Below are positions 7,871 through 15,384 of a stretch of 17,922 nucleotides of DNA, one piece after another. The notes beneath the pieces were generated by a model. The model was not told the origin of the DNA, did no database searches, and saw only the letters and a program-made list of their open reading frames with translations. This stretch comes from Rhodospirillales bacterium (GTDB taxonomy: Bacteria > Pseudomonadota > Alphaproteobacteria > Rhodospirillales > Casp-alpha2), in the NCBI GenBank assembly GCA_018664265.1, contig JABJOR010000235.1:1-17922 (forward strand), written 5' to 3'. Numbering within the stretch: position 1 is the first letter of the stretch; each line of letters opens with the position of its first letter. The translations under genes and the position numbers were made by a program.

Positions 7871-9739
7871 TTGGGCACAGTGCAAAATAAATCTGGAATT
7901 TCAATTTGGAATTTTACCATTTATGCCGTCATCACATTGACGATGCTGGTTGTAACATCCGCACTCTGGAATCTCGACAATCTAGACAAACAGGCCATTA
8001 ATATTGCCGCCGCAGAAGCCCGGGCAAACTGGAATAAAGACCAGGCCTTTCGCCGTTGGGCCACACGCCATGGCGGTTTATATGTAAAGCCAGATGAGCG
8101 AACACCCCCAAATCCGTATCTGGATCATTTACCCCACCGGGATATCAAAACCATCGACGGAGCAGACCTCACACTGATGAACCCGGCCTACATGATGAGC
8201 CAGATGACCAAAGAATTTGAAACCATGTACGGTATCAAAGGCAAGATCACAGGCCAAATCCTGCTCAATCCGGATAACGAGCCTGATCCCTGGGAGCTGG
8301 CATCCTTAAAACAGTTCGATAAAGGCGTAAAAGAAACACTGGAAAGGGCAGATGTTGACGGGCAGCCCTACATCCGCTTCATGCGCCCCATGATTATGAA
8401 GGAGGGGTGTGTTCTATGCCATGGTCATCTTGGCTTTGGCGTCGGTGATATTCGGGGCGGGGTCAGCGTCTCCATACCGCTGAAGCCCTATATTCAGGCT
8501 GCTCACAAAAGCAAAGTCTCCTTGCTGACAACCCATGGCAGTGTCTGGGTCCTCGGCATGCTTATGATTGGCTTTATATCCTGGCGGGGCAAAACCTGGG
8601 AAGCTATGCAAAGACAAACCGAAGATCGTTTAACAGGCATCCTCGATATTGCACCAGAGGCCATCATCACCGTTAACTCAGACATGACCATTGAGCTTTT
8701 TAACCAGGGCGCTGAACGCATTTTTGGATACGCGGCAAAGGATATAATCGGTCAATCCATGGAAATCCTGATCCCGCAAGCTGTTCGTCAAAACCACAGC
8801 AAACTTGTCGATGAGTTCAACCGATCAGAAGACAATTATCGGCCCATGGGGCTTCGCCAGGATATATCTGGTTTGCGTAAAGACGGCACCGAGTTTCCAG
8901 CATCCGCATCGGTATCCAAGCTCGACATTAAGGGCGAAAGAATTTTCACCGTCATGTTGCAAGACATCACACAACGCAGAGTAGCCGAACTTGCGATCAT
9001 GATATCCAAGGAAGAAGCCGAAATTGCCAACCGGGCCAAGTCAGAGTTTCTCGCCAATATGAGCCATGAATTACGCACCCCGCTCAACGCCATTATCGGG
9101 TTTTCCGACATGTTGACACATCAGGTCTTCGGATCCCTCGGAAATTCAAAAAATCATGATTCAGCAAGCTCGATCCATGAAGCAGGAAATCACCTGATGC
9201 AAATCATCGGCGATATTCTCGATATTTCAAAAATCGAAGCCGGTGAAGCAACAATTGAAGATACGAACGTCAATATGGAAAAATGCGTGCAGGGCTGCAT
9301 TTCAATGGTAAAGGCCCGGATCCGGGGCGCTGCAATCAAAGTGGATACGGAAATAGAAGATCATTTGCCAGACCTGCGTGCTGATAAACGACATGTGAAA
9401 CAGATTATTATTAATTTGTTATCCAACGCTATTAAATTCACGCCTGCAGGAGGCCGAATTACGCTCAGCGCTGGCCTTAATGAAAACGACTGTATGGAAA
9501 TAAAAATTTCCGATACAGGCGTCGGCATTGATGCAGAAAACATCTCAAAAGTTATGCAGCCCTTCGGGCAAGTCGCCGAAAGCCAAAAACGCAGTCATGG
9601 TGGCACCGGACTTGGCTTGCCGATTTGCAATTCTCTGATGAAACTCCACGGAGGATATTTATTAATTGAAAGCCAAATAGATAAGGGAACAACCGTTACT
9701 ATCACATTCCCATCAGATAGAACGCTTCCTATAAAGTGA
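7871..9739 (+). CDS. Membrane sensor histidine kinase with periplasmic DUF3365 (heme-c-type) and PAS domains
   Basis: 622 residues. Order: membrane helix about 13-33; periplasmic region about 35-218 of the DUF3365/Tll0287-like type with a CxxCH heme-attachment motif at C180-VLC-H184; second membrane helix about 222-238; PAS domain about 250-370; HisKA with phospho-acceptor H399 in FLANMSHELRTPLNAIIGF; HATPase with N519 in NLLSNAIKFTP, DTGVG at 548-552 and GGTGLGL at 577-583. No receiver is fused, so it needs a separate response regulator. Start TTG 7871 has AGGAA 7 nt upstream; GTG 7880 is the alternative. The periplasmic CxxCH suggests covalent heme and redox or gas sensing, known for related domains but inferred here. 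The 99-residue gene and a PAS_5 gene flank it. Confidence 0.9.
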   Translation: MGTVQNKSGISIWNFTIYAVITLTMLVVTSALWNLDNLDKQAINIAAAEARANWNKDQAFRRWATRHGGLYVKPDERTPPNPYLDHLPHRDIKTIDGADLTLMNPAYMMSQMTKEFETMYGIKGKITGQILLNPDNEPDPWELASLKQFDKGVKETLERADVDGQPYIRFMRPMIMKEGCVLCHGHLGFGVGDIRGGVSVSIPLKPYIQAAHKSKVSLLTTHGSVWVLGMLMIGFISWRGKTWEAMQRQTEDRLTGILDIAPEAIITVNSDMTIELFNQGAERIFGYAAKDIIGQSMEILIPQAVRQNHSKLVDEFNRSEDNYRPMGLRQDISGLRKDGTEFPASASVSKLDIKGERIFTVMLQDITQRRVAELAIMISKEEAEIANRAKSEFLANMSHELRTPLNAIIGFSDMLTHQVFGSLGNSKNHDSASSIHEAGNHLMQIIGDILDISKIEAGEATIEDTNVNMEKCVQGCISMVKARIRGAAIKVDTEIEDHLPDLRADKRHVKQIIINLLSNAIKFTPAGGRITLSAGLNENDCMEIKISDTGVGIDAENISKVMQPFGQVAESQKRSHGGTGLGLPICNSLMKLHGGYLLIESQIDKGTTVTITFPSDRTLPIK

Positions 9740-9847
9740 TGCCCTCATGTAACAATACGAATATGATTGTAATTATTATACTGGACGAGGTTCCTGTTTT
9801 GAATCTAGGATAAACAAGGGCTTCAAAAGGCAATAATAATTATACTT

Positions 9848-9870
9848 ATAAGCAAGTAGGGGTGCTTATG
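9848..9870 (+). promoter_or_regulatory. Hairpin presenting the Shine-Dalgarno of the second PAS gene
   Basis: ATAAGCA (9848-9854) pairs perfectly with TGCTTAT (9863-9869). The 8-nt loop (9855-9862) contains AGGGG, the ribosome binding site, and the start codon ATG (9868-9870) lies in the 3' arm. Folding would leave the Shine-Dalgarno exposed in the loop but tie up the start codon: a plausible translational switch. Confidence 0.45.
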
Positions 9871-10350
9871 ACAATTTGGAAAGAGTGGGAATCCTGGACC
9901 TTCGAGTATTTCGATCTTGATACGGACGCGTCAAATTTTCCGGGCGGTGAAGCGTTCATAGATTTATGGAACAAAAAACGCGGAGACCGCCAACTTCCGA
10001 GCTGGTCTGATTATGATTGGGATGATTTTACACCGTGGTGGGGCAGTGTGGTTGTCACAGATGTTATGTGGGAGCCTTACGACTTTCAATATCGGCTGTA
10101 TGGATCAAAGGTCGTTGAACAGTTCGAAGTGGATGTAACAGGCAAGAAAGCTTCTGAGCTTTTTGGTGGTGAATACGATCAATCCGTCGCCATCGAATTT
10201 TATGAAATGATCGGCAACAAGCCATATATTTCACGCTGCTCAGGCACAATCCACTGGCAAAACCGTGACTCTCGAAAAGTCACCTTTCTAGATCTGATGC
10301 TGTCAGACACTGGCGAACGCGTGAACAATGGCGTCTCAATTATGTTTTGA
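9868..10350 (+). CDS. PAS_5-type PAS domain protein
   Basis: 160 residues, soluble, essentially one PAS-like domain with no output domain. It starts at ATG 9868 with AGGGG at 9858-9862; the GTG at 9862 overlaps that Shine-Dalgarno and is unlikely. Family-like positions: W10, LW 33-34, KR 37-38, LP 43-44, W46, DY 48-49, DF 53-54, W57, G59, D65, M67, RL 77-78, G80, and DVTGK near 89-93. It aligns without gaps to the truncated gene at 1-326, so the two are paralogs. Such proteins are abundant in Rhodospirillales-type alphaproteobacteria and mostly uncharacterised; a sensory or adaptor role is inferred from the fold. It follows the heme kinase by 128 nt and converges on the response regulator with a 25-nt gap. 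Confidence 0.82.
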   Translation: MTIWKEWESWTFEYFDLDTDASNFPGGEAFIDLWNKKRGDRQLPSWSDYDWDDFTPWWGSVVVTDVMWEPYDFQYRLYGSKVVEQFEVDVTGKKASELFGGEYDQSVAIEFYEMIGNKPYISRCSGTIHWQNRDSRKVTFLDLMLSDTGERVNNGVSIMF

Positions 10351-10375
10351 GATTATTGTGTTCTAGCCAGTCTAT

Positions 10376-11065
10376 TTAAGGTATCAACCTGTACCCACCT
10401 GGCTCGGTCACCAGAATTTTAGCATTGGACGGATCTTCTTCGATTTTCTGACGCAATCTGTAGACGTGGGTTTCCAGCGTATGGGTTGTCACCCCGGTAT
10501 TGTACCCCCAAACCTCGTCCAGCAAGACATCCCGGCTGATCACCCGTTCGCCTGTGCGATACAAATACTTTAAAATTGCGCCTTCCTTATCGGTCAGGCG
10601 AACTTTTTGCCCGCTTTCATCATTCACCAGCATCTTTGCACCGGGCTGAAACGTATAAGGGCCAATGGCAAACATGGCATCATCGCTGCGTTCATGCTGG
10701 CGAATATGGGCTCGAACACGGGCCAAAAGCACCCCGAAGCGAAAGGGTTTGGTGACATAATCGTTGGCCCCCGCGTCCAGACCCAAAATTGTATCGGCGT
10801 CGGTATCAGCCCCGGTCAGCATAATAATCGGCGATTGCACCCCATTTCGGCGCATCACCCGACACAATTCCCGTCCGTCAATGTCCGGCAAGCCCACATC
10901 CAGGATAATAACGTCATAATAGTCTGTTTTGACGATATCCAGCGACCCCATGCCACTTTCGCACGTAGTGATCACAAATTCATCATGCAATTGAAGCTGT
11001 TCTGTCAACATCTCAACCAATGTAGTATCATCATCTACAAGCAAAATGCGCTTACCGATACTCAT
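10376..11065 (-). CDS. OmpR/PhoB-family response regulator transcription factor
   Basis: A 229-residue two-component regulator. Receiver: acidic pocket in LLVDDD, phospho-acceptor D56 in ILDVGLPDIDG, T84 in MLTGAD, K106 in YVTKPF. After a short linker comes a winged-helix DNA-binding domain from about 133, with LTDKEGAILKYL, RDVLLDEVWGY, the recognition-helix region THTLETHVYRLRQKI, and the terminal wing GGYRLIP. ATG at 11065 gives the usual family start (MSIGKRILLVDDD) with GAGAG about 10 nt upstream; the in-frame ATG at 11083 has no Shine-Dalgarno and adds six residues. The target genes are unknown. It is divergent from ribA, and the nearest kinase is at 7871, so pairing with it is possible but unproven. 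Confidence 0.93.
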   Translation of the reverse strand: MSIGKRILLVDDDTTLVEMLTEQLQLHDEFVITTCESGMGSLDIVKTDYYDVIILDVGLPDIDGRELCRVMRRNGVQSPIIMLTGADTDADTILGLDAGANDYVTKPFRFGVLLARVRAHIRQHERSDDAMFAIGPYTFQPGAKMLVNDESGQKVRLTDKEGAILKYLYRTGERVISRDVLLDEVWGYNTGVTTHTLETHVYRLRQKIEEDPSNAKILVTEPGGYRLIP

Positions 11066-11089
11066 ATTAATCACACTCTCCATCTATTA

Positions 11090-12491: not shown

Positions 12492-13562
12492 TTATTGCAC
12501 AGCGCGGGCTTCTTTAGCTGCTTTAGCAAGGCAATGAACTACGTTAAGACGTTGACCAAAGTGTTGGATATAATCCAGGAGCGCTTCACCCTTAAGGCTT
12601 TCCCCGGATGGAAAAGATACAGATATGTTCTTTTCAGAAAAGGCATATAATTTAGCCAATCGTTCTGTCAGGTTCTTCACCAGAAGAGTCCAATCACCCG
12701 AATAAACGCGCAGAACATAATTTGCAGCCTCTTCATGGTTTTTAAATTTCCACCATTTTATATCCGGCATTGGATTACATCTGGTATTGAGAACCCACCC
12801 ATAACCAAGAAGCTCAGCCTTGGTGAGTGGCGTTTTCTCCTCTAACACGGCCTCGGGATTTGGCTGCAAAGTTTCTACAGGCAGGGTGGCCGGAATCTCG
12901 ACAGTTGGCGGCAGTGGTGCTGGCTCGGGTTCTGTTACACTGGGGGGCGCAGGAACAGGATCGGATACAATTATAGTTGGTGGAGTATTTTCAGCCTCAA
13001 GGACTGGAGCCGAAGCAATTGCTTTGTCGTCCTGCGCCTGATTGCCAAGTGGCCATGCCCAAAAAAGCCAGGCGCTTGTGGCGAACAAAAGAATAAGGAC
13101 GCCATAAGTTATACCATAACTGTGTTTTACAGGTTTAACTCGTTGAACAAACTGCTGTGGTGGAATAACAGCTTTTAAAGACGGCGAAGACGCTCGATTA
13201 CGACTGGAAGCCAGTGTATTCTTTATCCGCAAAGTAAGCTCTTTTGCATGGATTGGCTTGGTCAGGTAATCATTCGCGCCCAGACCCAGAGCCATTAATC
13301 GATCGTCCATTTTTTGGCGAGCCGTTAATATAATAATCGGAATTTTTGATTCTTCTCGAATTTTTTTAATATGAGGAAGCGCGTCTCCATCAGGAAGCCC
13401 CAGATCCAGCAGGACCAAACTGATATCAGTCGATGCAAACACGTTGTACATTTCGGCCCCGGTTCCGGCAATCAAGACTTCATAGCCAGCGTCTTCCAGA
13501 ATGGCTTTAACCAAATCCTGAATTGATTCGTCATCCTCAACGAGCAAGATAACCTGTGACAT
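12492..13562 (-). CDS. Receiver domain fused to a membrane helix and an unknown, probably periplasmic domain
   Basis: 356 residues with an unusual order. Residues 1-118 are a complete CheY-like receiver: E9-D10-D11, phospho-acceptor D53 in LLDLGLPDGD, T80 and K102 in YLTKPI. A basic linker (about 119-148) is followed by one hydrophobic segment (about 149-170, rich in W, F and L). Next comes a Pro/Glu-rich stalk (about 186-245), then a folded-looking domain (about 246-356) with GYGWVLNTRCNP, IKWWKFKNHEEAANYVLR and C262/C344, which could form a disulfide. With the receiver in the cytoplasm, the last domain would be periplasmic. There is no DNA-binding, kinase, GGDEF or HD domain. I do not recognise the C-terminal domain. 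The ATG has GAGG 10 nt upstream. Divergent from a sigma-54-driven operon with an L,D-transpeptidase-type gene, so an envelope role is conceivable. Confidence 0.85.
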   Translation of the reverse strand: MSQVILLVEDDESIQDLVKAILEDAGYEVLIAGTGAEMYNVFASTDISLVLLDLGLPDGDALPHIKKIREESKIPIIILTARQKMDDRLMALGLGANDYLTKPIHAKELTLRIKNTLASSRNRASSPSLKAVIPPQQFVQRVKPVKHSYGITYGVLILLFATSAWLFWAWPLGNQAQDDKAIASAPVLEAENTPPTIIVSDPVPAPPSVTEPEPAPLPPTVEIPATLPVETLQPNPEAVLEEKTPLTKAELLGYGWVLNTRCNPMPDIKWWKFKNHEEAANYVLRVYSGDWTLLVKNLTERLAKLYAFSEKNISVSFPSGESLKGEALLDYIQHFGQRLNVVHCLAKAAKEARAVQ

Positions 13563-13815: not shown

Positions 13816-13831
13816 TGGCACGGCGTTTGCA
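13816..13831 (+). promoter_or_regulatory. Consensus sigma-54 (-24/-12) promoter
   Basis: TGGCAC (13816-13821), five bases, TTGCA (13827-13831): a full match to the sigma-54 consensus with exact GG-to-GC spacing of 10 nt. Transcription should start near 13842, 21 nt before the ATG at 13863. The strict match also rules out the upstream TTG at 13827 as a start codon, because it is part of the promoter. Confidence 0.85.
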
Positions 13832-13862: not shown

Positions 13863-14861
13863 ATGAGCTTTATGGACAGTGTTCGCCCGGCAGAACGGAT
13901 TGAAGGCAATACGCTTGCCAAAATGGCAAGGGGCGAAATCAATTCCCGTTCCACAAACGCCACGCACGGTACTGGTGCTTTAAACGCGCAAGCCGTTGGT
14001 GGAGATGATCCCACAAGTCAAAGTCTGTCTTTTGCAGACTTCATTGACGTTATCAATCCCCTGCAACACATTCCGATTATATCTACCCTCTATCAAAGAC
14101 TGACCGGGGACGAGATTTCCGCGCCGGCAAAGGTTGCGGGAGATGCGTTGTTCATGGGCCCACTTGGCGCGGCGGCGGCCATTATCAACCTGGCGCTGAA
14201 GGAACAAACCGGTGAAGACCTTGGCGGTCATGTAGCAAACCTGTTCTTTGACGAAGAAGACGCACCCGAGTTTGATACCGCAGTCGCAGATAATCAGGCC
14301 CAGCAACAAATACAGGCACAGTCCCTGGCTGCACTGGCACAAACTCAAGCGCAGCCCCAAGTCCAGCCACAGTTGCAAAAACAGGCAGCAAATACGGCCC
14401 ATAATACGACAGAGACGCCGGATACCTTATTGGACCCAGATGCGCCTTTCTCGTTTCCCGGCGTAAACGGAGAAATGCCACAGGAAACAACCGCAGCGCA
14501 AAACAATCTGCAAACCGTCAAACAGAGCTCCGATACAGACTTTTCCGCTCAATCTTTTGCAAACCCCATAGCCAGCTTCAATTCCAGTCAACAGCCCGTA
14601 AATCTGGAATCTCTGCCAGCCGATATTCTGGCTGCGCTTTACAGTGGAACGCCCCTGAATTCAGATACGACACCTTTTGCAAATTCAACCGACAGCCAGG
14701 CACCAAGGTGGAATTTATGGCAAGAAGAAGAAAGCGCAGCCATGCCATCGCCAGCGGCACTCGCGCCACAGGCCCTGTTTCCCAGAGCCATGAACGCATA
14801 TGAAACCTCGGGGCATTTGAAAACCCAGGCACAACAACCCTTTGTGAATATGGTTCAGTAA
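13863..14861 (+). CDS. Gln/Ala-rich protein of unknown function, sigma-54 driven
   Basis: 332 residues from ATG 13863, with AAGGA at 13847-13851. There is no signal peptide. Residues about 55-130 look like the conserved part: FADFIDVINPLQHIPIIS, then TGDEISAPAKVAGDALF, a small-residue hydrophobic stretch (about 97-111) and EQTGEDLGGHVANLFF. Residues about 135-175 are a low-complexity Gln/Ala run; the rest is Ser/Gln/Pro-rich and probably disordered. I have an impression that the NPLQHIP...TGDEIS core occurs in other alphaproteobacteria but cannot name a family. Its own consensus sigma-54 promoter lies directly upstream and the L,D-transpeptidase-type gene starts 10 nt after it, so they form a two-gene operon. 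Function unknown. Confidence 0.8.
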   Translation: MSFMDSVRPAERIEGNTLAKMARGEINSRSTNATHGTGALNAQAVGGDDPTSQSLSFADFIDVINPLQHIPIISTLYQRLTGDEISAPAKVAGDALFMGPLGAAAAIINLALKEQTGEDLGGHVANLFFDEEDAPEFDTAVADNQAQQQIQAQSLAALAQTQAQPQVQPQLQKQAANTAHNTTETPDTLLDPDAPFSFPGVNGEMPQETTAAQNNLQTVKQSSDTDFSAQSFANPIASFNSSQQPVNLESLPADILAALYSGTPLNSDTTPFANSTDSQAPRWNLWQEEESAAMPSPAALAPQALFPRAMNAYETSGHLKTQAQQPFVNMVQ

Positions 14862-14871
14862 GGTCTTGATC

Positions 14872-15384
14872 ATGGTTGCCTCGTTAAACTTCATTGATGT
14901 TTTTGCACCCGGCACCCTGAAAATTCCCAACCATGATTTTCGCTGCGCCCTGGGGCCATCCGGCATCCACCTCGATAAAACAGAAGGCGACGGCGTCACC
15001 CCGGCAGGCAGTTTTGCCCTGCGTCGGGTATTTTATCGATCCGATCGTATGGAGGCACCAGAAACCGGATTATCTGTGCAAGCCCTGACCCCCATAGACG
15101 GATGGTGTGACGATCCGGATCACAAAAAATATAACCGCTTTGTCAGTTTACCCTTTGCCGGATCACACGAAGATTTATGGCGTGAAGATCACGTCTACGA
15201 CATCATTGTTGAGGTCGGCTATAATGATGATCCGCCCGTTCCCATGCTGGGCAGCGCCATCTTCATGCACATAGCGCGGGAAATTTATGATCCAACGCAA
15301 GGCTGCGTGGCTTTGGCAGAAGATGATTTACGGATTGTTTTGAGGCACTGTAACAGCGATACCCGTCTGCGCATTAACCTGTAA
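14872..15384 (+). CDS. L,D-transpeptidase (YkuD-fold) family protein without signal peptide
   Basis: 170 residues. The YkuD-fold pattern is visible: GDGVTPAGSFALRRVFYR near 39-56, and the catalytic segment with H133 (IFMHIAR) and the T142-Q-G-C145 motif, the S/T-x-G-C signature whose cysteine is the nucleophile. The residue after CV is Ala, not the Arg of classical SHGCIR. Family enzymes make 3-3 peptidoglycan cross-links or attach proteins to peptidoglycan in the periplasm, yet no signal peptide or membrane helix is visible, so localisation is unclear. ATG 14872 has AAGG (14860-14863) 8 nt upstream and is preferred over TTG 14866. It starts 10 nt after the unknown gene and should share its sigma-54 promoter. 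Confidence 0.87.
   Translation: MVASLNFIDVFAPGTLKIPNHDFRCALGPSGIHLDKTEGDGVTPAGSFALRRVFYRSDRMEAPETGLSVQALTPIDGWCDDPDHKKYNRFVSLPFAGSHEDLWREDHVYDIIVEVGYNDDPPVPMLGSAIFMHIAREIYDPTQGCVALAEDDLRIVLRHCNSDTRLRINL

Follow-up and report, generated by a model that had tools for sequence, protein, structure and literature searches.

In the textbook two-component system, a signal passes from the outside of the cell inward, and its path ends in the cytoplasm. A gene in a stretch of 17,922 nucleotides from a Rhodospirillales bacterium (GenBank assembly GCA_018664265.1, contig JABJOR010000235.1; the whole stretch is called the window below) raises the question of whether a phosphorylation receiver can be joined through the inner membrane to a domain on its other side and, if so, in which direction a signal would pass. 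An earlier note had described the gene product as a membrane-anchored receiver with a proline-rich stalk and an unknown, probably periplasmic domain, and had seen a hint of envelope control in a divergent neighboring operon.

Architecture of the fusion protein

The gene lies on the reverse strand (positions 12492..13562) and is an intact open reading frame (ORF) of 356 aa with an ATG start. Its receiver domain (residues 5-113; 13224..13550, reverse strand) is complete, with D53, T80 and K102, and matches PF00072 at an E value of 2.9e-24 and 85.8 bits, against a cut-off of 30.2. PF00072 is also the sole Pfam match of the whole protein at E values up to 1, a search in which the winged-helix DNA-binding domain PF00486 did not appear. 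Pfam likewise gave no HisKA or HATPase match, the mark of a hybrid histidine kinase, and no HAMP, GGDEF or EAL match. LapD-type receptors carry HAMP, degenerate GGDEF and EAL domains.

The receiver is followed by one hydrophobic segment, a predicted transmembrane helix (residues 151-169; 13056..13112, reverse strand; KD 1.77), with a net charge of +3 before it and -2 after it. Beyond this segment lies a stalk of 20% proline (residues 170-245; 12828..13055, reverse strand) and then the C-terminal domain (residues 246-356; 12495..12827, reverse strand), which is supported by a family HMM and an AlphaFold2 model and is predicted to be periplasmic. We use "GDW domain" as a provisional name for the C-terminal domain family of about 89 aa defined here.

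A full-length AlphaFold2 model built from 13 sequences agrees with this layout. The receiver (residues 1-124) and the C-terminal part (residues 248-355) are well predicted, and a helix is placed at residues 152-168, albeit at low confidence (block means of 53). Residues 125-151 and about 169-243 are disordered; within the stalk, residues 171-240 lack secondary structure and have block-mean pLDDT values of 37-56. The anatomy given in the earlier note thus holds in every detail checked, from the receiver residues to the WWKF segment (residues 270-273) and the two cysteines of the folded C-terminal domain.

The GDW domain is a previously unnamed family

Modeled alone from 40 sequences, the GDW domain of the window protein reaches a mean pLDDT of 95.3 in AlphaFold2 and is helical with two short beta bridges. 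The family HMM places its core at residues 261-347, which contain both C262 and C344. Across 105 GDW copies, the conserved residues include C262 (105 copies), C344 (104), W291 (104), V283 (103), P266 (102), G289 (101), R338 (101), W271 (99) and H276 (87). The cysteine count is exactly two in 104 of the 105 copies. Since this pair is conserved in a domain that appears to be exported (see below), we infer a disulfide between C262 and C344.

The window copy shares the defining features of the family, namely C262, C344, W270, W271, G289-D290-W291 and the helical fold. It has leucine at positions 294 and 298, where the other copies mostly have tyrosine (Tyr294, 103 of 105 copies) and tryptophan (Trp298, 87 of 105), and may for this reason bind another ligand or partner.

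No convincing Pfam or NCBIfam match and no significant PDB sequence match were found for the domain, and none of the matches stood out in a structure search of the model against the PDB. By these comparisons, it is a previously unnamed domain family.

The fusion is conserved among relatives

The order of receiver, transmembrane segment, stalk and GDW domain was found in 30 intact ORFs, the window's included. Of these, 28 come from the window's order (its own among them), whereas two (G508, G600) belong to a different family within its class. The main census set comprises 24 unique receiver-GDW ORFs, again counting the window's, and in every one of the 24 a single hydrophobic segment separates the receiver from the GDW domain. 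A single segment is likewise present in the six fusions outside this set (L170, L187 and L188 to L191). A further fusion (L088) is cut by a contig end. A protein database search yielded four full-length relatives of the same order (P0002-P0005), with 44-51% identity across the part searched, and more came from genomes related to that of the window. One of the four, P0005, carries a SAR86 label in its source, which we suspect to reflect mis-binning.

In three of the fusion loci from one genus (L188, L189 and L190 in g7, several species), the fusion lies near putative miaA-like and ilv-type amino acid synthesis genes, names that come from the look of the sequence and not from a family call. The GDW domains at these loci keep only one tryptophan of the WW pair.

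A frameshift or misassembly that joins two genes, named in the earlier note as a finding that would overturn its reading, can be rejected for the window gene given its intact relatives of the same order. The survey for that order, also proposed there, returned 29 further fusion ORFs. Two of these (G007 and G018) sit in single-contig genomes, so the fusion is not a property of fragmented bins. In two other genomes (G005, loci L008/L036, and G023, loci L006/L040), receiver and GDW domain do occupy separate open frames, as an artefact or a decaying gene would predict; either sequencing error or decay may lie behind these two cases. Set against the 29 intact fusions, an artefact of either kind is extremely improbable.

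Distribution and other architectures of the family

Within the window's order, a profile search detected the GDW domain in 68 of 317 genomes, and a single-sequence search in 62 of 317. The domain was present in only three of 385 genomes sampled from the class, namely that of the window and two from a different family, and in one of 398 sampled from the phylum, again the window's own. No match appeared in the profile search of G001, which is 98% complete and the sole genus-mate listed. All 27 named GDW loci are labeled as metagenome-assembled genomes: 22 are assigned to Rhodospirillales or Rhodospirillaceae, one to Caenispirillum, which also belongs to the Rhodospirillales, and four only to Alphaproteobacteria or Proteobacteria.

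The class counts cover loci L060-L180 (27 named loci, 8 places, 6 loci and 80 places, the last from two lists of 76 and 4) and do not represent a random sample. Loci L001-L059 were left out of the counts because they are mostly repeats, as were 15 places read after the census. Among 95 unique family ORFs, 24 carry a receiver, 11 have tandem domains, 12 carry CXXCH motifs, 19 have a second unnamed C-terminal domain, four have Sel1-like repeats and one is a fragment. The remaining 24 are single-domain ORFs; among them are L088, a fusion cut by its contig end, and seven other ORFs in which more than 60 residues precede the domain. These counts are lower bounds, because the simple ORF caller lost some domain ORFs that lie under longer opposite ORFs (L066, L073, L077, L086, L170 and L187).

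The CXXCH ORFs carry one or two motifs. Pfam confirmed cytochrome c in all three that were submitted (L083, L098 and L129), in which a signal-like start, a GDW domain and a two-heme-motif cytochrome c are combined in one protein (L083:7914-8906, L098:871-1854 and L129:624-1643). Sel1 was confirmed by Pfam in the one ORF sent (L119). L094 has a long N-terminal part that looks AMIN-like, but a Pfam search at an E value of 0.001 did not confirm this.

The second C-terminal domain, which follows the GDW domain, has two cysteines and motifs resembling SxRRMRL and PSWxxRxFxYDA (for example L126:4162-4902, L153:4012-4806 and L161:4491-5294, as well as L163, L171 and L173). Four such ORFs sent to Pfam (L084, L153, L161 and L162) gave no match above the cut-off for this domain. 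Many secreted members (e.g., L061, L079, L126, L153, L154 and L156), including 14 of the 19 ORFs with the second domain, have a short [FL]xTAAG-like motif after the GDW domain. At one locus (L072:7192-8729), a local gene family is formed by three consecutive genes on the same strand, each encoding a signal-like start and one GDW domain.

The GDW domain is most likely periplasmic

The receiver-free members of the family offer a guide to the side of the membrane on which the domain resides. Among the 69 receiver-free ORFs with an uncut 5' end, 60 have a 12-residue segment with a mean hydropathy of at least 2.0 before the domain. The other nine comprise five that fall just under this value (1.8-1.93), two fragments (L151 and L168) and two without such a segment as called (L060 and L105). 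The attachment of c-type heme is periplasmic. Because GDW domains occur behind signal peptides and fused to c-type cytochromes, they appear to be exported.

In the fusions, net charge over 20 residues is higher before the hydrophobic segment than after it in 21 of 24 cases, with one tie and two reversals (L093 and L065). Given the exported relatives and the single transmembrane segment after a cytoplasmic receiver, the most likely arrangement is a receiver inside and a GDW domain in the periplasm. For the window copy itself, the periplasmic site is most likely by analogy with its relatives and from the computed transmembrane prediction. The relatives' export features and the conserved fusion support the earlier proposal of a membrane-anchored receiver with a probably periplasmic unknown domain.

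Two classes of receiver carry the same tail

D53 is kept in 23 of the 24 fused receivers, K102 in 23, T or S at position 80 in 22 and all three in 21; the deviating receivers are those of L114, L122 and L124. A tree of 51 receivers divides the 23 fused ones between two supported groups, an OmpR-like one, which holds the window's receiver, and a PleD-like one, the latter label being taken from the look of the sequence and not from a family call. Both groups also hold rows not called fused, some of which are separate-frame cases.

A single clade of the fused receivers was rejected at a p-AU of 0.026, an only moderately significant result obtained with four ambiguous rows set aside (L006, L007, L008 and the REC-HPt protein of L092). 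A single clade of the GDW domains of the fusions was not rejected (p 0.07), in a tree with few columns. The same arrangement stands on two receiver classes, and two independent fusion events are likely, not proven.

The window receiver matches the receiver parts of NCBIfam TorR, RpaB and ArcA, far below the whole-protein cut-offs, and in this it resembles OmpR/PhoB-type regulators (PF00072 plus PF00486). It differs from them in that a hydrophobic segment, a stalk and a GDW domain take the place of the DNA-binding domain. The PleD-type fusions differ in a corresponding way from PleD: the two sent to Pfam (L093 and L095) lack GGDEF and carry the same transmembrane-stalk-GDW tail as the OmpR-type fusions.

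The divergent sigma-54 operon is not conserved with the fusion

The earlier note had pointed to a divergent sigma-54 operon with an L,D-transpeptidase-type protein, and both elements are present in the window. An exact match to the sigma-54-type promoter element TGGCACG-N4-TTGCA occurs at 13816..13831 on the forward strand; shuffled sequences gave a mean of 0.28 matches when one mismatch was allowed. Downstream on the same strand lie a 332-aa protein with an ATG start (13863..14861; the longest ORF, of 344 aa, starts at 13827), which has no Pfam match at an E value of 0.01, and a YkuD/L,D-transpeptidase-family protein (14866..15384; Pfam E value, 1.4e-9).

Conservation of this neighborhood was assessed with phmmer (E values up to 1e-5), using 11 window proteins against ORFs of at least 90 aa at 25 other fusion loci. 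These loci span 4.6-18 kb with uneven flanks and include the contig-cut L088 and the two-frame case L066. The eleventh query, the OmpR-type regulator, was kept out of the counts because any receiver matches it. A relative of the 344-aa or the YkuD protein was found at none of the 25 loci, nor were relatives of the RibA, PAS_5, cytochrome, YggS, ThiE, LolA and FtsK proteins of the window. Yet the 332-aa protein has a relative in 52 of 61 relatives, most matches spanning about residues 53-140, and 36 of these 52 genomes lie outside those in which a fusion (whole, cut or split) was read. The operon therefore says nothing reliable about the fusion. The hint of envelope control finds no echo at the other loci, and a function read from the sigma-54 and L,D-transpeptidase neighbors was rejected, the link being unconserved.

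Signaling genes beside the fusions

No kinase gene adjoins the window fusion. Within 5 kb of it are an OmpR-type regulator and a Tll0287-PAS histidine kinase that has two hydrophobic segments; together with a PAS_5 protein (window positions 7871-11083), they look like a separate two-component neighborhood. With this kinase as the sole kinase query, four of the 25 other fusion loci gave a match, all beside PleD-type fusions, and six further PleD-type loci (L118, L122, L124, L135, L177 and L178) gave none.

At three loci (L093, L078 and L116), the next gene downstream of the fusion, on the same strand, encodes a hemerythrin-PAS-HisKA-HATPase kinase, after gaps of 34, 34 and 43 nt. At a fourth (L117), a hemerythrin domain starts 18 nt downstream of the fusion in a gene that is cut by the contig end. 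All four gaps are measured by the longest ORF or the first ATG. Because these PleD-type fusions cluster in the receiver tree (support 93/78), the four loci count as a single instance of the link to a hemerythrin kinase. A hydrophobic segment of at least 1.4 is absent from two of the three complete kinases; in the third, one weak segment (1.47) lies inside the kinase part. Lacking a clear hydrophobic segment, they look cytoplasmic.

Other partners occur elsewhere. At L092, a REC-HPt protein is encoded 19 nt away from the fusion on the same strand, with a single-domain hemerythrin, CheR and an HPt protein in the vicinity, and a hybrid kinase with two hydrophobic segments lies about 0.8 kb from the L114 fusion. 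Among the OmpR-type fusions, the gene directly upstream encodes a CheY-like receiver at L090 (11 nt) and, at L063 and L065 (34 nt each), a receiver-like protein that scores at the Pfam threshold or slightly below it.

Discussion

By its receiver, the fusion protein is a response regulator, and it has a new, most likely extracytoplasmic end. What this end does is best captured, in our view, by a membrane-anchored response regulator whose output, or far end, would lie in the periplasm, so that signaling runs inside-out, a proposal that we hold with about even confidence. A histidine kinase would phosphorylate the receiver; in the four related loci, this would probably be the operon-linked hemerythrin kinase. 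Phosphorylation would then change receiver dimerization or partner binding. As the stalk is floppy and variable in length across the fusions (20-116 residues, 5-29% proline), the change would be passed on as clustering or repositioning of GDW domains instead of a rigid push. Receivers of the OmpR- and PleD-like classes commonly dimerize when phosphorylated, and clustering passes through a floppy linker. Clustering could in turn alter how the GDW domains bind a partner in the periplasm, perhaps one that the secreted GDW proteins also bind. We infer the direction from cytoplasm to periplasm, and this mechanism, as the best reading. It is the simplest one because the kinase seems to sense inside and the only distinct domain lies outside.

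Several observations weigh against inside-out signaling. The kinase operon comes from one sub-clade of four PleD-type fusions, whereas the window fusion has no kinase beside it, and its GDW domain deviates at positions 294 and 298. Its transmembrane helix is modeled at low confidence, L060 and L105 lack an export signal as called, and the charge bias is reversed in L093 and L065. Three of the 24 receivers lack one of the D, T/S and K residues, the one-clade test is only moderately significant for the receivers while a single GDW clade is not rejected, and a long disordered stalk is poor at passing on a rigid change. The last point applies equally to the reverse direction, in which a periplasmic ligand on the GDW domain would tune how readily the receiver takes up phosphate from a kinase shared with another regulator, making the fusion an outside-in co-sensor or a regulated phosphate sink: a floppy stalk serves no better inward than outward. 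Secreted GDW proteins, as expected for a binding module, are consistent with such a role, as are the kinase and OmpR-type regulator near the window fusion, the CheY-like or receiver-like proteins directly upstream of the L090, L063 and L065 fusions and the REC-HPt protein beside L092. The three complete operon-linked kinases, however, have soluble-type sensors of their own (hemerythrin and PAS) and no clear transmembrane segment, and we consider the co-sensor or sink somewhat unlikely. If instead the GDW domain anchored the receiver at an envelope site, for example a polymer or a protein, the signal would act locally in the cytoplasm and none would cross the membrane. A disordered stalk of such variable length suits a spatial tether, and so does the use of the GDW domain as a reusable module with cytochromes, Sel1 repeats and another domain. 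Since no cytoplasmic output domain beyond the receiver was found, a tether would need a separate effector, and we regard it as rather improbable. Returning to inside-out signaling, a more specific version may be offered tentatively: soluble, oxygen- or redox-sensing hemerythrin kinases might phosphorylate the tethered receivers, whose periplasmic GDW ends would be part of a network that includes secreted GDW proteins and those fused to cytochromes, the arrangement having arisen on at least two receiver classes.

A literature search whose scope lay outside bioRxiv and took in few subscription papers returned, in titles and the openings of abstracts, no protein with a receiver, a transmembrane segment and a periplasmic domain, and it did not return the phrase "membrane-bound response regulator" or similar wordings. 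The accessible text of PMC3018481 names no protein of that order. The closest conceptual parallel is provided by archaeal REC-associated domains, which are likewise unnamed, lineage restricted and joined to receivers. As presented in the accessible text of PMC5847659, they could be inputs, and one of them, MetOD3, is called membrane anchored; it stands N-terminally, in the order MetOD3-REC-MetOD2, in four proteins in Methanoregula. The GDW domain differs from MetOD3 in being C-terminal to its receiver. Functionally, the closest parallel is LapD, which, according to the accessible text of PMC3032553, relays a cytoplasmic signal through the inner membrane to an output domain in the periplasm and is thus also inside-out. 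LapD senses c-di-GMP, whereas the GDW fusion has a receiver, with no GGDEF or EAL domain found. If the inside-out reading is true, the fusion would be a phosphorylation counterpart of c-di-GMP inside-out signaling, and the operon-linked kinases and fusions would form a directly testable pair. The finding suggests that, in these bacteria, a phosphorylation signal can travel outward to the envelope.
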